From contig JAJPHC010000013.1 of the NCBI GenBank assembly GCA_021325515.1, forward strand, positions 64,001-128,000: DNA of 64,000 nucleotides. Reading direction: 5' to 3'. Source of the stretch: Acidobacteriota bacterium. GTDB lineage: Bacteria; Acidobacteriota; Thermoanaerobaculia; Gp7-AA8. The notes beneath the pieces were generated by a model. That model worked only from the letters and a program-made list of their open reading frames with translations. It made no database searches and had not been told where the DNA came from. Each line of letters starts with the position of its first letter. The first letter of the stretch is position 1. The translations under genes and the position numbers were made by a program. Positions 11,385 through 63,726 of the stretch are shown piece after piece.

Positions 11385-13734
11385 AGAACAGCCCAACGAT
11401 CGTCGCCAACATCACGATCACGCCGATGCGGAACGACCATGGCGCGTACCAGACGCGCACGTCGTTCTCGCCGGGCGGCACGACGAATCCGAGAAACGCG
11501 CCGTTCACTTCGAGCGGCCGCAGCGTCCTGCCGTTCGACGTGACATGCCATCCCGGCCAGGACGCGATGCTGCAGGCGATCATCGTGTGGCGCGGTGCGC
11601 TGACGTGCACGCGGTAGCCGGCTGCCGATGATTCCTGAATGACGACCTTCGCAACCGGTGCGTTCGCCGGGCGCGGGGCCAGGAGATCCTTTCGCTCCTG
11701 ATCGCCGCTGACCGGAAGGCGGTTCATGAGGCAGGTCTCGCGGAACTCTTTCTGCGCGATGAGCTGGCGCATGAACTGCGCGCGATTGAAATCGAGGATC
11801 ACGTTCTGCACCGCGAAGAAGCGCGGCATCGCGTCGTGATTTACGAAGATGCGGCCGTCCTTCCCGCTGTAGATCTCCTCGAAACGCTGGCGGTCTCTGA
11901 CCTCGCCATGCGTGTCGGCGAGGATGTAGCGCACGTTAAGAAAATCGAGCATGCGCGAGTCGAGATTTCGCCAGGGGGCGAAATAGCTCGTCGAATCGTA
12001 GTCGCCGCGCTCCCGCAGCACGCGGAGGTAACGGCCGTTCGCCATCGGATCGTGCATCCGCACATCCTCGAAGCCGAAGATCGCATTCATGTTCGGAAAG
12101 AACATGGCGCCGATGCCGGCGATGCGGAACGGCTCGTGCGATTTCTCCTGCAGCGCCTGCAGCTTCTCGATGAGCGGCGTCTTCGGATAGAGGAACTCGA
12201 TCGGCAGATTTGGATTCCATCCCCAGTTGAAGATGAACACCTCGGCCACGACCGCCGTGGTGACGAGCATCAGCGCCCACTCCCGGTAACGGCCAGCGAG
12301 CGGCACGAGCGATGCGAACAGCAGCACGGCCATGCTGGGCGCGATCGCCATGACCGCCGTCGATTTCGCGAAATCGCTCGGGAACTGCACGCGCGTGATC
12401 AGCAGCAGGAGCGTGATCGCGCCGCAGAGGAGTCCGGCGAGATACGGCCACGCGCGCTCGCGCCGCGCGAAGTCGAGGGCCGCCGCCGTCTGCAACGCGC
12501 CGAGGAAGCAGAGCATCGAGCGGAGCCGTGCGTTTGCGGCGAGCTTGAAGAAGAAGTTGAAGATGTCGCTGATCCCCGGCCATGCCAGCACGACTCCGAG
12601 GAAGAAGATCGTGGCCAGGACGAAGAAGAGCTCGCGATCGCGGAAGCGGCGAAGCGCGATCGAACGAAGCGTGATCGCGATCATCGAGCAGAGCCCGAGG
12701 ATGCCCGCGGCTCCTTCCAGCCCCTCGGCTGACGCGGCGTCGGCCCACGCGCGCTCGAGTGGAACGTGTCCGAAGAACGTCGGCTCGAGCAGCAGAACCT
12801 TCGATGTCCAGTCGGAGAAGATGCCGATCACGTGCGGCTGCACGAGCAGCTCCTGATAGCGCTTCGATCGCGGGAGCGCCTCGAGGAACGGCGCGATGTA
12901 AGGCATCGCCAGCATCGCGCCGCAGGCGATTGCCGCGCCTGCACCGAAGAGCGTCCTCCATGCGTTCTGTCCGCGCCGTTCGACGAACGCGATCCACAGC
13001 AGATACAGCGCGCAGAGGAACGCGGTGTGCGACACGGTCTCCGGATGTCCGTTGTAGAGCATCGCCGCCCAGAGCACCGCGGTGAATACGAAGCGCCGGT
13101 ACGTGACCCGCTCGGCGATCAGATCGATCGAGTAGAGCGCAGCGGGAATGAACGCCGCCGCGGTGCCGAGCGGAAAGTGCAGCCAGACGTGGATGAAGGT
13201 GGAGAACCCGTACGACGCGGCGGCGACGACGCTCGGCAGTTCGCCATACGTGCGGCGGCGCGCGAGCAGATACATGAATGTCAGGGCGACGAGGACCTTG
13301 AGGCCTGCCTCCGCCGTCATCGCCCATCCGAGCGGAAGCGGCAGCGCGAGGAGACGGATGAGCGAGAAGGGGGCGCTCTGTCCATTGGCGAGCAACGGAT
13401 ATCCGCAGCCGGCCATCGAGTTCCAGAGCGGAAGTGAAAAGGAACGGAGCGCCTCGCGCGCCTGATGTGCCCACGGGACGATCTGCAGAACGATGTCGTT
13501 CAGTTGCCCGTTGATCGGCTGCTTCACGTGCGAGAGGTGATACCAGGGCGGCAGGCGCTGGATGTAATCCGCAGGGACGGTGACCCATGGACCCGTCAGC
13601 GGTTTCCACATGAAGATCAGCACGAGCGCGTAGAAGAAGATCGCGACTCGCGCTGGAATGATCGTTCCCGCACGCCTCGCGAGCCAGACCGCGATCGCAT
13701 AGATCGCGCCGACGTAGAGCCACGTTGGATTCAT
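11347..13734 (-). CDS. YfhO-family multi-spanning membrane protein (GT-C-like)
   Basis: A 795-residue membrane protein with about 12 hydrophobic segments up to residue ~500, then a soluble part and a last membrane helix near 765-785. The stretch LQIVPWAHQAREALRS...LPLWNSMAGCGYPLL (residues ~80-120) is typical of YfhO proteins, which are involved in glycosylating lipoteichoic acids or other envelope polymers; in Gram-negative bacteria their target is unknown. The start at 13734 overlaps tyrA as ATGA. The extreme C-terminus is encoded by a dispersed repeat, so the original stop may have lain earlier. Confidence 0.82.
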   Translation of the reverse strand: MNPTWLYVGAIYAIAVWLARRAGTIIPARVAIFFYALVLIFMWKPLTGPWVTVPADYIQRLPPWYHLSHVKQPINGQLNDIVLQIVPWAHQAREALRSFSLPLWNSMAGCGYPLLANGQSAPFSLIRLLALPLPLGWAMTAEAGLKVLVALTFMYLLARRRTYGELPSVVAAASYGFSTFIHVWLHFPLGTAAAFIPAALYSIDLIAERVTYRRFVFTAVLWAAMLYNGHPETVSHTAFLCALYLLWIAFVERRGQNAWRTLFGAGAAIACGAMLAMPYIAPFLEALPRSKRYQELLVQPHVIGIFSDWTSKVLLLEPTFFGHVPLERAWADAASAEGLEGAAGILGLCSMIAITLRSIALRRFRDRELFFVLATIFFLGVVLAWPGISDIFNFFFKLAANARLRSMLCFLGALQTAAALDFARRERAWPYLAGLLCGAITLLLLITRVQFPSDFAKSTAVMAIAPSMAVLLFASLVPLAGRYREWALMLVTTAVVAEVFIFNWGWNPNLPIEFLYPKTPLIEKLQALQEKSHEPFRIAGIGAMFFPNMNAIFGFEDVRMHDPMANGRYLRVLRERGDYDSTSYFAPWRNLDSRMLDFLNVRYILADTHGEVRDRQRFEEIYSGKDGRIFVNHDAMPRFFAVQNVILDFNRAQFMRQLIAQKEFRETCLMNRLPVSGDQERKDLLAPRPANAPVAKVVIQESSAAGYRVHVSAPRHTMIACSIASWPGWHVTSNGRTLRPLEVNGAFLGFVVPPGENDVRVWYAPWSFRIGVIVMLATIVGLFWWSGRRPRLPAR

Positions 13735-14477
13735 TTCGGGAGAGAGCGGTACAGGTGTTGTGCGCGCGTGAAGTGAGGCGAAGGATCGCGCTCGAGCATC
13801 TCGCGCACGATCTGCATCACCGCATCCGTATGCGGCGCGATGTTGTCGCGATTCTCGGCGAGGATCGGCGCCCACATCTCCACGCCCATTCCCGCGAGGC
13901 GGAGAAACGTTCGCAGCCCGCCGGCGGAAAAGCGGAGCGCATCGCGCCGGTCATCCAGATACGAAGCGAGGGCCGTGGAGAGGAGTTGCGGCAGATGGCT
14001 GACCAGCGCGACGGCGCGATCGTGCTCGGCGGCATCGACGAGCTCGGGGCGCGCGCCGCAGTCTTCGATCATCCGTTCGACCACCTCGCTGCGGCGATCG
14101 ATGAACCATGACGGCGCGTTCGCGAAGAGCTCGCGCGATGCCGCCTCGATTCCGCTCTGCTCTGTGCCGGTCATCGGATGTCCTGCGACGAAGTCGCCGG
14201 CTGCTGCGCGGCGAAGAGGAGCCATGACACTGCACACCGACGTGACGAGGCCGCGCGTGTGTGGCAGAAGCTCGAGCGCGACGTTCTCGGGAGTTGCGAG
14301 AATCGTCAGGTCGACCGGATCGTCGAACGTGCCGCGCGCATCGGCCGCGTCTCGCGTGCCGGCGAATTCATGACGGTCGAAGTAGAGGATGTACCAGCCG
14401 CGCGCGCGCAATGCCATGCCGATCGAGGCGCCGATGGCGCCGAGGCCGGCGATGAGCGCACGCGGCTGCCGGGTCAT
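13731..14477 (-). CDS. tyrA: Prephenate dehydrogenase
   Basis: A 248-residue NAD-dependent enzyme converting prephenate to 4-hydroxyphenylpyruvate for tyrosine. The dinucleotide site GLGAIGASIG is at residues 11-20, the prephenate-binding GHPMTGTEQSG near 100, and the catalytic-type VSHLPQLLS near 155. No ACT or chorismate mutase domain is fused. It overlaps its neighbours on both sides (ATGA with the lipoprotein and with YfhO). Confidence 0.88.
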   Translation of the reverse strand: MTRQPRALIAGLGAIGASIGMALRARGWYILYFDRHEFAGTRDAADARGTFDDPVDLTILATPENVALELLPHTRGLVTSVCSVMAPLRRAAAGDFVAGHPMTGTEQSGIEAASRELFANAPSWFIDRRSEVVERMIEDCGARPELVDAAEHDRAVALVSHLPQLLSTALASYLDDRRDALRFSAGGLRTFLRLAGMGVEMWAPILAENRDNIAPHTDAVMQIVREMLERDPSPHFTRAQHLYRSLPK

Positions 14478-15016
14478 TGCCTCGTCATCAGAATCAGCGT
14501 GCGGTTCACGACTTCCGAGCGCGTCGGATCGAAGTAGGGGCGCTCGATCGTGACATGCGGCCGGCTCGGCTTCGCTTCGATCTCGGCGGCTTTGTATGCG
14601 CCGGATGCCTTGCTCACGTCGGCGTTGACTCCCATCTTCGTCAGAAGATCCTGCGTGGCTTTCGCGTCGTTGCCGAGATCGCCGCTGCGGTAGAACGCGG
14701 ACGGTTTTCCAGGGCCGGAGTTGGCCGGCGTGTCGGGCGCGACCTTTCCGTAGCCGTACTGCTGCGCGTAGTAGGTCGCGACGTCTTCGAGTGGCGCGTC
14801 CGTGTCGTACACCGCGGTCGCAGGAGGCTCCTGCGTGGGAGCGAGAACCTTGTGCGCGCGTTTGAAGAGATCGGTGACCTGAGGAAGGTACTTGGCGCCC
14901 GGATAGACGACGAATGCGAATGCTTCAGTTTCGAGTTGCGCCGTTTCTTTTTTGCATCCGATGAGTGTGGCGGCAGCGATCAGAGCGATGACTACCGGCC
15001 GAGAGAATGTCCGCAT
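14474..15016 (-). CDS. Putative lipoprotein, unknown function
   Basis: A 180-residue protein with a lipoprotein signal (VIALIAAATLIGCKKE, lipobox LIGC with Cys at ~20). The mature part has YPGAKYLPQVTDLF early and YAQQYGYGK later, recalling small envelope proteins that describe a conserved paired beta-alpha domain, but I cannot place it in a named family. GGAGG 10 bases before the ATG supports the start at 15016; the longer reading from 15064 has no such site. It is coupled to tyrA by ATGA. Confidence 0.75.
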   Translation of the reverse strand: MRTFSRPVVIALIAAATLIGCKKETAQLETEAFAFVVYPGAKYLPQVTDLFKRAHKVLAPTQEPPATAVYDTDAPLEDVATYYAQQYGYGKVAPDTPANSGPGKPSAFYRSGDLGNDAKATQDLLTKMGVNADVSKASGAYKAAEIEAKPSRPHVTIERPYFDPTRSEVVNRTLILMTRQ

Positions 15017-19441: not shown

Positions 19442-20755
19442 ATGAGCGACTACAGCGTCTACGAGCTTCTCAACCGCAAGCGCCGCGGCGCACCCCTCGA
19501 GCCTCGCGAGATCGAATTCTTCATCGATGGCTACACGCGCGGCTCCATTCCCGACTATCAGATGTCCGCGCTGCTGATGGCCATCGCGATCAACGGCATG
19601 ACCGGCACGGAGATGGCGACGCTCACGCAGGCGATGCTCCGCTCCGGCGAGCAGTGGCACCTGCGCGACTCGTACGACTTCATCGCTGACAAGCATTCCA
19701 CGGGCGGCGTCGGCGACAAGGTCTCGCTCGTGCTCTCGCCATGGGTCGCCGCCTGCGGCGTCAAGTCGGGCATGCTCTCCGGCCGCGGCCTCGGGCACAC
19801 CGGCGGGACGCTCGACAAGCTCGAAGCGATTCCCGGTTTCAATGCCCGTCTGTCGCGCGCGGAGTTCGAGCGCTGCGTGCATGAAGTGCTCTGCGTGATC
19901 TCGACGTCGACGGAGGGAATCGCGCCGGCCGACAAGAAGATCTACGCGCTGCGCGACGTGACGGGGACGGTCGAGTCGCTGCCTCTCATCACGGCCTCGA
20001 TCATGTCGAAGAAGCTCGCGATGGGGGCGTCGGCGCTCATTCTCGATGTGAAGACCGGAAGCGGCGCGTTCATGCGCAAGTATCAGGACTCGAAGGCGCT
20101 CGCGCAGTCGCTGATCGCGGCGGCCGAAGGCTCGGGGACGAAGGTCGAAGCGCTGATCACCGATATGGACCGGCCGCTCGGCGTCGCCGCGGGCAACGCG
20201 AACGAGATCATCGAAACGATCGAAGTGCTGAAGGGCAACGGACCCGCGGATGTGGAAGAGGTGACGCGCCAGCAGTGCATCCGCATTCTGGTGATGTCGG
20301 GCCAGTTCGATGACGCTTCGGCAAAGGCTGCACTCGATGAAGCACTGAAGTCGGGCCGCGCGCTGGAGCAGGCTCGCAAGTGGATCGCGGCGCAGGGCGG
20401 CAATCCGGAGGTCGTCGACAACTATGCGCTGCTCGCGCAGCCGCGAACGGCCGTCGAGGTGAAGGCGCCGCGCAGCGGCTTCATCACGGCGATCGACACG
20501 TATCAGGCAGGCATGTTCACGGTCGATCTCGGTGCAGGCCGCAAGAAGGCCGATGACCAGATCGACTACGCCGCCGGCGTGATGTTCGATCGCAAGACCG
20601 GAGACGAGGTGAAGGCCGGCGACGTCATCGCGCGCGTTCAACTCGGGAAAAAGGAGTTCGACCCCGAGGAACTGCGGACGAGGTTCCTGTCGTTCGTCGA
20701 GATTCGCGACGAAGCCCCGGCGGAGCGGCCGCTCGTGCACGAACACCTTTCTTGA
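19442..20755 (+). CDS. deoA: Pyrimidine-nucleoside (thymidine) phosphorylase
   Basis: A 437-residue enzyme that splits thymidine or uridine with phosphate. ADKHSTGGVGDKVSL near residue 81 is the phosphate site, and SGRGLGHTGGTLDKLEAIPG near 114 is the family signature; the C-terminal PYNP domain (KAPRSGFITAID near 340) is complete. It supplies deoxyribose 1-phosphate, the substrate of the phosphopentomutase encoded downstream. The stop TGA at 20753 is the first TGA of the heptanucleotide array that separates it from deoB. Confidence 0.93.
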   Translation: MSDYSVYELLNRKRRGAPLEPREIEFFIDGYTRGSIPDYQMSALLMAIAINGMTGTEMATLTQAMLRSGEQWHLRDSYDFIADKHSTGGVGDKVSLVLSPWVAACGVKSGMLSGRGLGHTGGTLDKLEAIPGFNARLSRAEFERCVHEVLCVISTSTEGIAPADKKIYALRDVTGTVESLPLITASIMSKKLAMGASALILDVKTGSGAFMRKYQDSKALAQSLIAAAEGSGTKVEALITDMDRPLGVAAGNANEIIETIEVLKGNGPADVEEVTRQQCIRILVMSGQFDDASAKAALDEALKSGRALEQARKWIAAQGGNPEVVDNYALLAQPRTAVEVKAPRSGFITAIDTYQAGMFTVDLGAGRKKADDQIDYAAGVMFDRKTGDEVKAGDVIARVQLGKKEFDPEELRTRFLSFVEIRDEAPAERPLVHEHLS

Positions 20756-20871
20756 ACGATGAACGATGAACGATGAACGGGGGAGGGCGAAACGATGAAC
20801 GATGAACGATGAACGATGAACGGGGAGCCTCCGCTGTTCATCGTTCATCGTTCATCGTTCATCGTTCCCTC
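20754..20871. repeat. Heptanucleotide inverted array, cassette A (unit GAACGAT)
   Basis: Direct units GAACGAT run from the deoA stop: three full units at 20754-20774, a partial one, a short interruption (GGGGGAGGGCGAA), then three more full units to 20817. A centre (GGGAGCCTCCGCT, 20823-20835) is followed by four inverted units GTTCATC (20836-20863) ending at GTTCCCTC just before the ATG of the four-helix-bundle gene. The two arms can pair into a long hairpin over the start region of that gene. Confidence 0.9.
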
Positions 20872-21225
20872 ATGATCTCGCTTCGCGATCGGACGAAGGC
20901 GTTCGCCCTTCGCATTGTTCAGGCCTATGCCGCCCTTCCGAAGTCGGAATTGGCGCGTGTTCTTGGGCGGCAGCTTCTGCGATCCGGGACGTCCGTGGGG
21001 GCTCATTGCCGCGAGGCGTACCGGTCCCGCTCCGATGCCGAGATCGTCAGCAAGCTCGAGGTTGCCCTTCAGGAGCTCGACGAAACCAACTATTGGCTCG
21101 AGTTGATCGTGGAGTCGAACATCATGTCGAGCCGCCGTCTGCAACCGTTGATGGAAGAAGCAAACGAGATCACCGCGATCATCGTGAGCTCCGTCAAGAC
21201 GATCAAGCGGCGGATGAAACGATGA
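20872..21225 (+). CDS. Four-helix-bundle protein (TIGR02436, S23/IVP-type, Avd-like fold)
   Basis: A 117-residue, mostly helical, basic protein. LLRSGTSVGAHCREAYRSRS (residues ~37-56), VALQELDETNYWLELI (~68) and EANEITAIIVSSVKTIKRR near the end match the family first seen as ORFs inside rRNA intervening sequences and structurally related to Avd of diversity-generating retroelements. No biochemical role is settled for stand-alone members. The start at 20872 follows array cassette A; the stop TGA at 21223 is part of the first repeat unit of cassette B (CGA TGA A...). It sits between deoA and deoB, and no reverse transcriptase or rRNA is near. Confidence 0.85.
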   Translation: MISLRDRTKAFALRIVQAYAALPKSELARVLGRQLLRSGTSVGAHCREAYRSRSDAEIVSKLEVALQELDETNYWLELIVESNIMSSRRLQPLMEEANEITAIIVSSVKTIKRRMKR

Positions 21226-21329
21226 ACGATGAACGATGAACGATGAAACGATGAACGATGAACGATGAACGATGAACGAGCGGCGGTTCCCCCGTTCATC
21301 GTTCATCGTTCAAGGTTCATCGTTTCAGA
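21224..21329. repeat. Heptanucleotide inverted array, cassette B
   Basis: Starting in the stop codon of the four-helix-bundle gene, units GAACGAT run to 21280, with one 8-bp variant (GAAACGAT at 21245) and a last unit GAACGAG. The centre CGGCGGTTCCCC is followed by inverted units GTTCATC, GTTCATC, GTTCAAG, GTTCATC and GTTTCAG. The segment 21274-21312 is repeated exactly at 21356-21394 in cassette C. Confidence 0.88.
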
Positions 21330-21355
21330 GTGGAGTCGAACCTCATGTCGAACCT
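21330..21355 (+). pseudogene. 26-bp relict of the four-helix-bundle gene between arrays
   Basis: This segment matches 21109-21134 inside the intact four-helix-bundle gene at 23 of 26 positions (differences at the 13th, 23rd and 26th base). In the matching frame it reads VESNLMSNL against VESNIMSSR in the gene. It is flanked by array cassettes B and C. The simplest reading is that a second gene copy once stood here and was largely deleted by recombination between arrays. Confidence 0.7.
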
Positions 21356-21469
21356 GAACGAGCGGCGGTTCCCCCGTTCATCGTTCATCGTTCATCGTTC
21401 ATCGTTCATCGTTCCAAATCATCGTTCATCGTTGACTGTTCCTCGTTCATCGTTCATCGTTCATCGTTC
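21356..21469. repeat. Heptanucleotide inverted array, cassette C, ending at the deoB start
   Basis: One GAACGAG unit and the GC-rich centre are followed by inverted units GTTCATC in several blocks, interrupted by GTTCCAAATCATC and GTTGACTGTTCCTC. The last unit ends GTTCATG, so the deoB start codon is built from the array itself. The first 39 bp duplicate 21274-21312. No ribosome binding site is present before deoB, so the array must also affect how deoB is translated. Confidence 0.88.
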
Positions 21470-22639
21470 ATGAGAGTCATCACGATCGTTTGCGATTCGC
21501 TCGGTGTTGGTGAGCTGCCTGATGCGAAGGAGTTTGGCGACGAAGGTTCGAACACGCTGGGGCATGTGCTGAGTGCCGAGCGTCCGAGTCTTCCCACGCT
21601 TGCGAGGCTCGGTCTGCTGCACACACTGCCGGAACCGGCAACGAGCGACGCTCCTGTCTCTGCTTTCGGGCGCATGGCGGAAGTCAGCGCGGGGAAGGAC
21701 ACGACGACGGGTCATTGGGAAATGATGGGACTCGTCGTCACCGATCCCTTCCGCACGTATCCGGACGGCTTCCCGCCGGATGTGATCGGCGAGTACGAGA
21801 AGCGCATCGGCCGCAGGACGCTGGGCAACAAGCCGGCGAGCGGGACGGTGATCCTCGATGAGCTCGGCGAAGAGCACATGCGCACGGGCGCGCCGATCGT
21901 CTACACGTCGGCGGACTCCGTGTTTCAGGTCGCGGCGCATGAAGACGTGATCCCGGTTGAAGAGCTCTGGCGCATCTGTGCCGTGGCGCGCGAGCTGATG
22001 CGGGGCGAGCACAACATCGGCCGCATCATCGCGCGCCCGTTCGTCGGTCCGGGGAAGGGCGCCTTCAAGCGCACCGCGAATCGCAAGGATTTCTCGGTGA
22101 AGCCGACGGGCGAGACGGTCGTCGAGCGCGCATCGAAGAACGGCCGGCGTGTGATCGGCCTCGGGAAGATCGCCGACATCTTCGATCGCGTCGGCATCGA
22201 CGAGGAGATCCGGACCGAGTCGAATTCCGACGGCATGCGCAAGACGATCGACCTCGTGCGCGAATCGGACGCGAGCTTCATCTTCACGAACCTCGTCGAC
22301 TTCGATTCGAAGTACGGGCACCGCAACGACGCGCATGGCTACGCGAAGGCGCTCGAGACATTCGATCAGGAGCTGGGCGGGTTGCTGCAGGTGATGCGCC
22401 CCGAGGATCTGCTCTTCATCACCGCGGATCACGGCTGCGATCCGACGGATGTCTCGACCGATCACACGCGCGAGTACGTGCCGATGCTGATCGCCGGCCC
22501 CGCGATTCGCGAACAGCGCCCGCTCGGTACGCGCACCACCTTTGCCGATCTCGGCGCCACGATCTGCGACTACCTCGGGCTTCCTCACGAGGACCTGCCC
22601 GGAAAAAGTGCATTGGGTGAGTTGGGAGTGAAGCGATGA
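21470..22639 (+). CDS. deoB: Phosphopentomutase
   Basis: A 389-residue alkaline-phosphatase-superfamily mutase that interconverts (deoxy)ribose 1- and 5-phosphate. The first metal Asp is in IVCDSLGVGELPDA, the phosphothreonine site in DTTTGHWEMMG (~residue 82), NLVDFDSKYGHRND near 273 and ITADHGCDPT near 318 complete the two-metal centre. The length is the family norm. It follows deoA in the salvage pathway but is parted from it by ~715 bp of array DNA. ATG 21470 arises from the last array unit; in-frame readings further upstream are repeat-encoded. Confidence 0.92.
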   Translation: MRVITIVCDSLGVGELPDAKEFGDEGSNTLGHVLSAERPSLPTLARLGLLHTLPEPATSDAPVSAFGRMAEVSAGKDTTTGHWEMMGLVVTDPFRTYPDGFPPDVIGEYEKRIGRRTLGNKPASGTVILDELGEEHMRTGAPIVYTSADSVFQVAAHEDVIPVEELWRICAVARELMRGEHNIGRIIARPFVGPGKGAFKRTANRKDFSVKPTGETVVERASKNGRRVIGLGKIADIFDRVGIDEEIRTESNSDGMRKTIDLVRESDASFIFTNLVDFDSKYGHRNDAHGYAKALETFDQELGGLLQVMRPEDLLFITADHGCDPTDVSTDHTREYVPMLIAGPAIREQRPLGTRTTFADLGATICDYLGLPHEDLPGKSALGELGVKR

Positions 22640-30268: not shown

Positions 30269-30278
30269 CCGCGAGGTG

Positions 30279-30531
30279 GAGCGCGGACGCCCTCGTCCGC
30301 GAGCTGCTGCCGTCGAGGCAGCAGTGCTCCGTTGGGGATCAGTGGGGCGCGGACGTCCTCGTCCGCGAGCTGCTGCCGTCGAGGCAGCAGTGCTCCGTTG
30401 GGATCAGTGGGGCGCGGACGTCCTCGTCCGCGAGCTGCTGCCGTCGAGGCAGCAGTGCTCCGTTGGGATCAGTGGGGCGCGGACGCCCTCGTCCGCGAGC
30501 TGCTGCCGTCGAGGCAGCAGTGCTCCGTTGT
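30279..30531. repeat. Four tandem copies of a 65-bp two-hairpin module
   Basis: Four near-identical units begin at about 30281, 30347, 30412 and 30477. Each contains GCGGACG-tcct-CGTCCGC (or GCCCT in the centre) and CTGCTGCC-gtcga-GGCAGCAG, followed by TGCTCCGTTGGGATCAGTGG as linker. Copies differ by only a few bases. A single copy is at 11236 and a reordered set at 53925. All forward frames are open through it, giving spurious ORFs. Confidence 0.92.
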
Positions 30532-38897: not shown

Positions 38898-38997
38898 CGG
38901 ATGGGACTATGGGACCTATGAGACCTATGAGACCTATGGGTGGCTTGCGTCAACTTCCTATAGGTCCCATAGGTCCTATCCGTCCCATAGTCCCATC
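38898..38997. repeat. Nonanucleotide inverted array (unit GGGACCTAT)
   Basis: Left arm: TATGGGACC/TATGAGACC-type units at about 38899-38940; centre TGGCTTGCGTCAACTTCC; right arm of inverted units (TATAGGTCCCATAGGTCC...) at 38957-38997. The right arm ends at the TGA of the YceI gene, and the left arm begins 15 bp from the start of the propeller gene. The same unit is used at 48274-48357, 9 kb away. Confidence 0.9.
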
Positions 38998-41460: not shown

Positions 41461-41538
41461 GCGCACGGTTTCGCGGGCGCGCGGGCGCGTGGTCCCACCC
41501 ACCCCGCCGAGCCCGCGAGCCCGCGAGCCCGCGCAACC
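41461..41538. repeat. GC-rich octanucleotide inverted array (unit GAGCCCGC)
   Basis: The whole space between the gvpF stop and the gvpG start is an inverted array: left arm GGTTTCGCGGGCGCGCGGGC, centre GTGGTCCCACCCACCCC, right arm with units GAGCCCGC repeated three times and ending GCGCAACC just before the ATG. The same unit type recurs at 63601-63726. Confidence 0.82.
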
Positions 41539-45133: not shown

Positions 45134-45464
45134 CCGGATCATCGCCAACGATGCGGAGCGGCTGCGCGAGGAGCTCGCCTTCACGGACACGATGATTCCG
45201 GACCGGATCGCGGCCGATCCGGAAATTGTCGAGAACGGCTTGGCAAAGCTTGTGCTTTCCATCATCGAGCTCATCCGCCGATTGCTCGAAAAGCAGGCGC
45301 TGCGACGCATGGACGCGGGCAATCTGAGCGAGGAGGAGATCGAGCGGCTCGGCGCGGCGCTGATGAAACTCGAAGAAAAGATGAATGAACTGAAGAGCAC
45401 GTTCGGACTATCCGATGCCGACCTCAACCTTAAGCTAGGCCCGGTAAAGATGTTTGAAGAGTGA
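45126..45464 (+). CDS. gvpK: Gas-vesicle protein GvpK
   Basis: A 112-residue helical accessory protein. GLAKLVLSIIELIRRLLEKQ, ALRRMDAGNLSEEEIERLG and the end LNLKLGPV are GvpK signatures. Start is GTG 45126 overlapping the previous stop. The last codon and stop (GAG TGA) form the first unit of the GAGTGAC array downstream. Confidence 0.9.
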   Translation: MSDRIIANDAERLREELAFTDTMIPDRIAADPEIVENGLAKLVLSIIELIRRLLEKQALRRMDAGNLSEEEIERLGAALMKLEEKMNELKSTFGLSDADLNLKLGPVKMFEE

Positions 45465-45556
45465 CGAGTGACGAGTGACGAGTGACGAGTGAAGGGTAAA
45501 AGGGAGTCACTCATCACTGATTACTCGTCACTGATCACTAGTCACTCGTCACTGCA
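45459..45556. repeat. Heptanucleotide inverted array (unit GAGTGAC) at the gvpK stop
   Basis: Five tandem units GAGTGAC/GAGTGAA start inside gvpK (45459), are followed by a centre AGGGTAAAAGG, then by inverted, slightly irregular units (AGTCACTCATCACTG, ACTCGTCACTG, AGTCACTCGTCACTG). About 20 bp then remain before the gvpJ ATG. It divides the cluster into accessory genes and the two larger GvpA-family genes. Confidence 0.88.
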
Positions 45557-48273: not shown

Positions 48274-48357
48274 GGATGGGACAGATGGGACCTATGGGAC
48301 CTATGGGACCTATAGGCGGACCACCCATTGGTCCCATAGGTCCTATAGGTCCCATTC
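48274..48357. repeat. Nonanucleotide inverted array (unit GGGACCTAT), second locus
   Basis: Left arm GATGGGACAGATGGGACCTA... (48274-48316) with three to four units, centre GGCGGACCACCCATT, right arm of inverted units to 48357. The right arm reaches the TGA of the downstream minus-strand gene. The unit is the same as at 38898-38997, so this sequence has spread or been exchanged between loci. Confidence 0.88.
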
Positions 48358-53924: not shown

Positions 53925-54303
53925 GTGGAGTGCGGACGCCTCGTCCGCACATCGTGACAAAGCACAAGGGAGCCACGGTGTGGTGGGGTGCGGACGTCTC
54001 GTCCGCACATCGTGACAAAGCACAAGGGCACCGCAGTGGGGTGGAGTGCGGACGCCTCGTCCGCACATCGTGACAAAGCACAAGGGCGTCACGGTGGGGT
54101 GGGGTGCGGACGTCTCGTCCGCACATCGTGACAAAGCACGAGGGCACCGCTGCCTCGACGGCAGCGGCGCGCGGACGAGGGCGTCCGCGCCCCACGTCAG
54201 GCAGCTCGCTCGGGATGACGCACATCGTGACAAAGCACAAGGGCACCGCTGCCTCGACGGCAGCGGCTCGCCGACGAGGACGTCCGCGCCCCACGTCAGG
54301 CAG
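53925..54303. repeat. Composite tandem array: four 58-bp units, then two ~95-bp units
   Basis: TGCGGACG hairpins begin at 53931, 53989, 54047 and 54105, exactly 58 bp apart; each unit carries GTGCGGACG-nnnn-CGTCCGCAC, then ATCGTGACAAAGCACAAGG and a variable 15-20 bp. They are followed by two longer units (from ~54141 and ~54239) with CCGCTGCC-tcga-CGGCAGCGG and an inverted GCGCGGACG hairpin plus CCCCACGTCAGGCAGCT. These are the two-hairpin modules of 11236 and 30279 in the other orientation. Confidence 0.9.
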
Positions 54304-54307
54304 CTTT

Positions 54308-63600: not shown

Positions 63601-63726
63601 AGGGGTCACGCGGGCTCGCGGGTTTGCGGGCTCGCGGTGGGGTTTCCGTAACGATCCCCTGCTGCGCCTGTTGCACGAGGCCTCACCTCCGAGCCCGCGT
63701 ATCCGCGAGCCCGCGTGACCCGGAGG
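63601..63726. repeat. GC-rich octanucleotide inverted array (unit GCGGGCTC)
   Basis: Left arm GGTCACGCGGGCTCGCGGGT... (63603-63640), a ~60-bp centre, right arm with units GAGCCCGCG repeated and ending GCGTGACC (to 63721). Outer ends GGTCACGCGGGCTC and GAGCCCGCGTGACC pair exactly. It separates the GT2 gene from a convergent partial gene. The unit type is shared with 41461-41538. Confidence 0.85.

Follow-up and report, generated by a model that had tools for sequence, protein, structure and literature searches.

A four-helix-bundle gene inside inverted heptanucleotide arrays between deoA and deoB as part of a probable bipartite repeat-protein system

Why should a gene of the S23/TIGR02436 four-helix-bundle family, which is widespread, has solved structures and has no settled role, sit between deoA and deoB inside arrays of a heptanucleotide that run into the codons of its neighbours? 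The window, by which we mean the whole stretch of 64,000 nucleotides that was analysed, belongs to contig C51 of an Acidobacteriota genome (G000; 5.38 Mb in 63 contigs, 99.84% complete), and its deoA-deoB gap (20753-21472) holds a single TIGR02436/PF05635 gene enclosed by direct GAACGAT and inverted ATCGTTC arrays. We consider it probable that this locus is part of a bipartite repeat-protein system, similar to REPIN-RAYT in its working and built around an Avd-like protein. Seven TIGR02436 genes were identified in G000 and all seven lie between inverted arrays of 7-9 bp, with seven different units (GAGTGCT, TGGGCGC, CGCGGGCT, GAACGAT, AAAATTG, AACGCAG and ATGGGACCT); GAACGAT is one unit among many, every paralogue having its own. 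An equal inverted-flank score was reached by 7/7 four-helix genes and by 3/577 other open reading frames (ORFs) across an 860-kb sample of G000 (p about 3e-14), a 578th ORF, antisense to the window gene, having been set aside. Of the three exceptions, one is a 45-bp inverted repeat resembling that of an insertion sequence, one is a GAGTGAC array pair, and none is a clean array-flanked gene. On contig C40 of G000, an ORF (L068, 6872-7831) has a perfect 45-bp inverted repeat on each side and is likely an ordinary insertion sequence.

The arrays were located by direct reading of the sequence, with Tandem Repeats Finder (TRF) and with a custom scan. The gap and its two neighbours are organized as follows.

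19442-20755, + strand: deoA (thymidine phosphorylase; NF004490, E 1e-157); its stop codon TGA, 20753-20755, is the first TGA of the array
20753-20779, + strand: direct GAACGAT array (TRF, custom scan)
20791-20822, + strand: direct GAACGAT array, arm 1 of the pre-gene hairpin (TRF, custom scan)
20823-20835: centre of the pre-gene hairpin
20836-20867, + strand: inverted ATCGTTC array, arm 2 of the pre-gene hairpin (TRF, custom scan)
20872-21225, + strand: four-helix-bundle gene, TIGR02436/PF05635, 117 amino acids (profiles, AlphaFold2, Foldseek)
21213-21279, + strand: direct GAACGAT arrays 3' of the four-helix gene, in two blocks (TRF, custom scan)
21290-21324, + strand: inverted array, partner of 21247-21279 (TRF, custom scan)
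21330-21354, + strand: 25-bp copy of a fragment of the four-helix gene (23/25 bases as in 21109-21133)
21372-21414, + strand: inverted array, third block (TRF, custom scan)
21438-21471, + strand: inverted array reaching into the deoB start codon (sequence, TRF, custom scan)
21470-22639, + strand: deoB (phosphopentomutase; NF003766, E 1e-156)

A first-pass annotation of this DNA had described an array that begins in the deoA stop codon, restarts in that of the four-helix gene and ends in the deoB start codon, and the coordinates agree: the stop codon of the four-helix gene (21223-21225) falls within the downstream direct array, and the deoB ATG (21470-21472) forms the end of the last inverted array. 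The same annotation needs amendment on two points. It took the gap to be made wholly of units and gene, both of which are there, but short centres and the 25-bp gene fragment are present too; and it described every cassette as direct array, centre and inverted array, which fits the other blocks but not the third, which has inverted arrays only. According to RNA folding, these may pair with the outermost direct arrays, and the deoA-deoB stretch as a whole folds far more stably than its shuffles (z = -15.8). The duplicated 25-bp fragment (score 21, against a shuffle maximum of 17) suggests that part of the array block derives from a gene-bearing copy. The best reading of the gene start is 20872; the alternative in-frame ATG at 20809 sits in the array.

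How far does the association extend? Among genomes of the same class, inverted arrays were found at 64/74 evaluable copies and at 16/18 further copies, nearly always with a period of 7. Beyond the class, we scanned a genome collection with the window's subfamily only, since one alignment spanning the two subfamilies proved too diverse, and recovered 80 loci from Acidobacteria, Cyanobacteria, Chloroflexi, Bacteroidetes, Verrucomicrobia, Proteobacteria, Planctomycetes, Clostridia and others. Inverted arrays were present at 55/80 of these loci, compared to 3.4% when the downstream flanks were swapped between loci, and the array density fell tenfold from 1.5/kb within 300 bp of the gene to 0.14/kb beyond 900 bp. 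Copies on plasmids in Nostoc, Planktothrix and Treponema are array-flanked as well. The proposal of the first-pass annotation that protein and arrays form one unit is thereby upheld, since array flanking lies far above that of random genes both in the genome of the window and across phyla, which was the comparison it had asked for.

Two sets of neighbourhoods may be recorded here in their own right. On plasmids (L177, L179, L181), four-helix genes with short heptamer arrays stand in operons beside helicase/DNA-methylase, DISARM drmD or BREX pglX genes, and a link of the family to phage-defence operons is possible. At two other loci (L193, L208) the four-helix genes lie 3' of tRNA genes with a small signal recognition particle RNA gene close by, and in L208 there is a tRNA gene on both sides.

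The arrays differ from gene to gene, and they do so together with the protein. In a set of 56 genes, the more alike two proteins are, the more alike are their units (Mantel rho 0.24, 0/2000 permutations), such that pairs at least 60% identical have a common unit within 1 mismatch in 68% of the cases, compared to about 1% for pairs below 50%. For pairs without a common flanking gene, the unit was shared by 12/66 at 50% identity or more and by 6/1047 below 40%. Dispersed arrays follow the same pattern. The clearest contrast comes from whole genomes: GAGNNCT arrays gave 15-935 matches where a protein of the L001 type (at least 52% identity) is encoded, in 8 genomes, and 0-4 in the remaining 13 (p 5e-6, and 8e-4 within the family, values that ignore phylogeny). 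Likewise, the 5 genomes that encode a protein of the P0001 type (at least 64% identity) have 16-72 matches of AA[CG]GATG arrays (p 0.005 within the family). Genomes without the cognate protein are without the dispersed unit, with G011 as the sole exception.

These dispersed arrays constitute the second part of the system. In the 860-kb sample of G000 we counted about 36 inverted array pairs, or 42 per Mb, which by extrapolation corresponds to roughly 230 per genome. The gene-less hairpins have arms of mostly 30-45 bp and a centre of 4-66 bp, and the dispersed arrays group into few unit families, which are those of the seven G000 genes. With at most 1 mismatch, 72% of them match the unit of an own paralogue in G000, 58% in G008 and 75% in G009, and the units of other genomes are matched by 9%, 11% and 41%, respectively. 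The unmatched arrays in G000 are mostly ACGGATGGG, which also occurs in the flank of paralogue L007, and GAGTGAC, which has two mismatches relative to GAGTGCT. Most hairpins begin within about 30 bp after a stop codon, and they are scarce in divergent gaps (p 0.03). Gene-bearing and gene-less hairpins have the same polarity, the G-rich arm leading by 51:3, 60:6 and 63:2. Four gene-less examples in the window, with no strand assigned, are the following.

38903-38996: inverted array of the ACCTATGGG family, the unit of paralogue L007 (TRF, custom scan)
41472-41533: inverted array of the CGCGGGC(T) family, the unit of paralogue L003 (TRF)
45452-45554: inverted array of GAGTGAC, a unit close to the GAGTGCT of paralogue L001
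48275-48355: hairpin of the ACCTATGGG family, immediately 3' of a stop codon

At 63609-63715 of the window, CGCGGGCT and CGAGCCCG arrays stand in inverted order around a 52-bp centre, with the unit of paralogue L003. The tandem units of 65, 58 and 99 bp at 30276-30530 and 53925-54305, which are rich in GTCCGCG-type motifs, are unrelated to the heptamer arrays.

Beyond G000, array density was estimated from samples of 12-200 kb per genome or group, and most genomes are draft assemblies broken at repeats. The density is 144-310/Mb in G000, G008, G009 and G020, compared to 0-80/Mb in the small samples from genomes without the four-helix family, where no inverted pair was seen in about 485 kb. Comparison of relatives, which the first-pass annotation had called for, revealed both empty deoA-deoB sites and variation in unit number. 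The gap measures 24-53 bp in G003, G005, G012 and G018, holds a four-helix cassette in G000, G006, G007 and G008, and contains other inserts in G001 and G004. The insert in G001 (L266) consists of a BrnT-family toxin gene (PF04365, E 1.5e-24) and a second small ORF, 5' of deoB; judged by eye, the gaps in G004 and G010 resemble it. The deoA-deoB gap is apparently a hot spot of insertion.

Is it the gene or the hairpin that moves? The four-helix orthologues occupy identical chromosomal sites across genera. The idea of a mobile or self-amplifying element in the first-pass annotation must accordingly be divided: the gene cassette is not evidently mobile at present, being found at the same sites across genera, whereas the gene-less hairpin would be what spreads. 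Judging from these sequence comparisons, the gene-bearing cassette resembles a fixed master gene, and the spreading part would be the gene-less hairpin with the same unit. The gap 5' of the S9 peptidase (48275-48355 in the window) is array-free in G002, G006, G008 and G010; in G000, G001, G004, G005, G007, G009 and G011 the stop codon is followed by a hairpin. The units of these hairpins vary by genome, and in G000, G001 and G004 they equal the genome's own gene-borne unit. With the gap empty or differently filled, one and the same gene end appears to have gained hairpins, or exchanged their units, repeatedly. At L312 (contig C24 of G011, 11500-15000), intact GTGGGTA arrays enclose a four-helix remnant of about 51 codons, which may be an intermediate between the gene-bearing and the gene-less forms.

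The protein itself is a confident member of its family, with matches to PF05635 (E 1.3e-19, 70.8 bits, curated cut-off 33.8) and TIGR02436 (E 5e-26, 91 bits, curated cut-off 24) and a predicted four-helix-bundle fold like that of 2rld and 2gsc. The AlphaFold2 monomer has four helices with a predicted local distance difference test score (pLDDT) of 97.3, and its nearest structures in Foldseek are 2rld (template modelling score, TM, 0.86) and 2gsc (TM 0.84), followed by Avd (4dwl) and the reverse transcriptase complex of a diversity-generating retroelement (8ub7). Both 2rld and 2gsc contain five chains; the prediction made here is of the monomer only. Third codon positions are 2.5-5 times more divergent than second positions, and the protein is therefore under purifying selection. 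We also considered a viral origin of the gene and rejected it, the viral contigs having no relative and only two weak phage records being found. PADLOC gave no close family for it.

Several known systems share features with this one. In REPIN-RAYT systems, a genome has a small number of genes, single-copy and for the most part vertically inherited, each next to its own repeat type, along with dispersed gene-less inverted-repeat hairpins of the matching type; their coevolution is long, and their mechanism of spread is unresolved (PMC3116915). Here too, the flanking repeats are also dispersed as inverted pairs, and the cognate gene is single-copy and mostly vertical, with orthologues at the same sites and distinct units. 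However, the protein is a four-helix bundle without a Y1/HUH domain and unrelated to RAYT, and the locus can thus not be counted as REPIN-RAYT despite the shared architecture. Further differences are the tandem 7-9 bp arrays in place of a fixed REP palindrome and the G-rich-arm-first polarity common to gene-bearing and gene-less hairpins.

The short tandemly repeated repetitive (STRR) heptamer sequences of cyanobacteria are tandem 7-bp, intergenic and hairpin-capable repeats of unknown function (PMC2670836), and arrays of this description are present here. Unlike the STRRs, those studied here occur in many phyla and are tied to one gene family. The four-helix genes of cyanobacteria are flanked by arrays of TAATTCG, CAATTCG or CCCCAAT, the last of which we take to be the published STRR1. 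TAATTCG, the unit of L215, gave 541 matches in its own Nostoc genome and 0-33 in other Nostocales genomes. A link between the four-helix system and the STRR heptamers is suggested by these data; no protein partner of the STRRs is described in the open-access literature that we searched. Intervening sequences of 23S rRNA with an S23/IVP ORF have the same protein family, PF05635, and the ends of the rRNA insert can pair, whereas the neighbours of the gene studied here are protein genes. A 23S rRNA was detected neither in the vicinity of the window copy nor in 20 further sampled loci, and a location inside an rRNA gene was discarded. Avd of the diversity-generating retroelements has a similar fold (TM 0.78 to 4dwl, 0.76-0.78 to 8ub7), and one four-helix paralogue matches the PHROG Avd family (E 6e-5). 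However, our locus has no reverse transcriptase nearby, and Avd systems have a paired template and variable repeat (PMC10053308) where heptamer arrays are found here, such repeats not having been searched for in this study.

What mechanism could account for these patterns? One part of the bipartite system would be a site-fixed, vertically inherited four-helix gene inside inverted arrays of a private 7-9 bp unit; the other would be the genome-wide gene-less hairpins of the same unit, each with a G-rich array of 4-5 units, a short centre and an inverted array, behind stop codons. We infer that the array hairpins are bound by the four-helix protein and that it drives their spread. The first-pass annotation had suggested a nucleic-acid-binding protein that acts on array RNA or DNA, and the patterns described above give good grounds for expecting such binding. 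As in the solved relatives, the assembly is probably a pentamer; the protein may recognize the repeated unit in single-stranded or hairpin form, in DNA or RNA, and may cause arrays to be copied or converted at further gene ends with the assistance of host enzymes, whereby master and dispersed arrays would be kept alike. The arrays would be harmless landing pads that end or separate transcripts.

Several observations weigh against such a system. Clear arrays are missing at about 10-30% of the copies, depending on the set; G015 has one gene copy and zero arrays in the 20 kb sampled, and G034 has 26 hits, many of them partial, yet few arrays in 60 kb. The 277 AA[CG]GATG matches in G011 are found in a genome where the cognate gene was not found, although one array there runs off a contig end and the gene could lie in an assembly gap. 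The correlation between unit and protein is partly due to common descent, because many close pairs are orthologues at one site, and gene-bearing and gene-free genomes are partly separated by phylogeny. Profile searches recognized no catalytic family in the protein, PF05635 being the sole Pfam match. Finally, no insertion event was observed among the genomes compared, which included no close strains.

The main rival is a purely RNA-level role, in which the protein is an RNA-binding regulator or stabilizer, host genes co-opt the hairpins to terminate transcripts or to protect 3' ends, and the protein has no share in the spread of the arrays, which proceeds by slippage, template switching and recombination. 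The hairpins directly behind stop codons and their scarcity in divergent gaps fit this explanation, as do the fold shared with Avd, a member of a complex of RNA and reverse transcriptase (8ub7), and the suspected role of cyanobacterial heptamer repeats in transcript stability or translational coupling (PMC2670836). We nevertheless regard it as unlikely, since taken alone it leaves unexplained why the gene lies inside arrays of its own unit, and why orthologous gaps have unrelated units that match each genome's own families. It is less probable still that the arrays are self-made DNA, born of slippage and hairpins, and that the four-helix gene is a passenger tolerating or preferring the site between the arms. 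The arrays are far more numerous than the genes, their origin by slippage is possible, and those of G011 are abundant where the cognate gene was not found; but other ORFs are so placed in just 3/577 cases, unit and protein covary even without common flanks, and such arrays are nearly absent from genomes that lack the gene family.

Two explanations that invoke known enzymes appear weaker again. The Avd-like fold and the weak similarity to the Avd profile would be expected if the protein were part of a retroelement, with a reverse transcriptase acting in trans to copy array RNA to new sites. We hold this to be very improbable: no reverse transcriptase was found in the array-bearing genomes G001, G003, G006, G011 and G012, and the only RVT_1 match of G000 is on contig C26, away from the window on C51. 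A reverse transcriptase was rejected as an obligatory partner on account of its absence from several array-bearing genomes. The least credible of all is a classical REPIN-RAYT system, in which the hairpins owe their mobility to a Y1 (HUH) transposase encoded elsewhere and the presence of the four-helix gene is incidental. Most of these genomes do have Y1 transposase genes, but genomes lacking arrays commonly have them as well, and the array-rich G008 has one weak match. Moreover, the array-flanked gene is the four-helix gene, the flanks of the Y1 genes not having been inspected individually. As it occurs both with and without arrays, the Y1 transposase was likewise dismissed as a specific partner.

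The bipartite repeat-protein system that we favour would give a candidate partner both to a widespread protein family without a settled role and to the dispersed heptamer repeats. In a broader form, which to us stands in even balance, S23/TIGR02436 proteins across bacteria may be cognate, unit-specific trans factors of heptamer-array hairpins, which would also explain the cyanobacterial STRR repeats, in a system for repeat maintenance or mobility with no recognized transposase or reverse transcriptase. No earlier description of the association between the family and the arrays was found in the open-access literature, although priority is not certain. About fifty protein-unit pairs have been collected here. 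If the hypothesis is true, it would represent a second, unrelated bacterial counterpart of REPIN-RAYT, and the specificity of a small helical protein could be read from the DNA that adjoins its gene.

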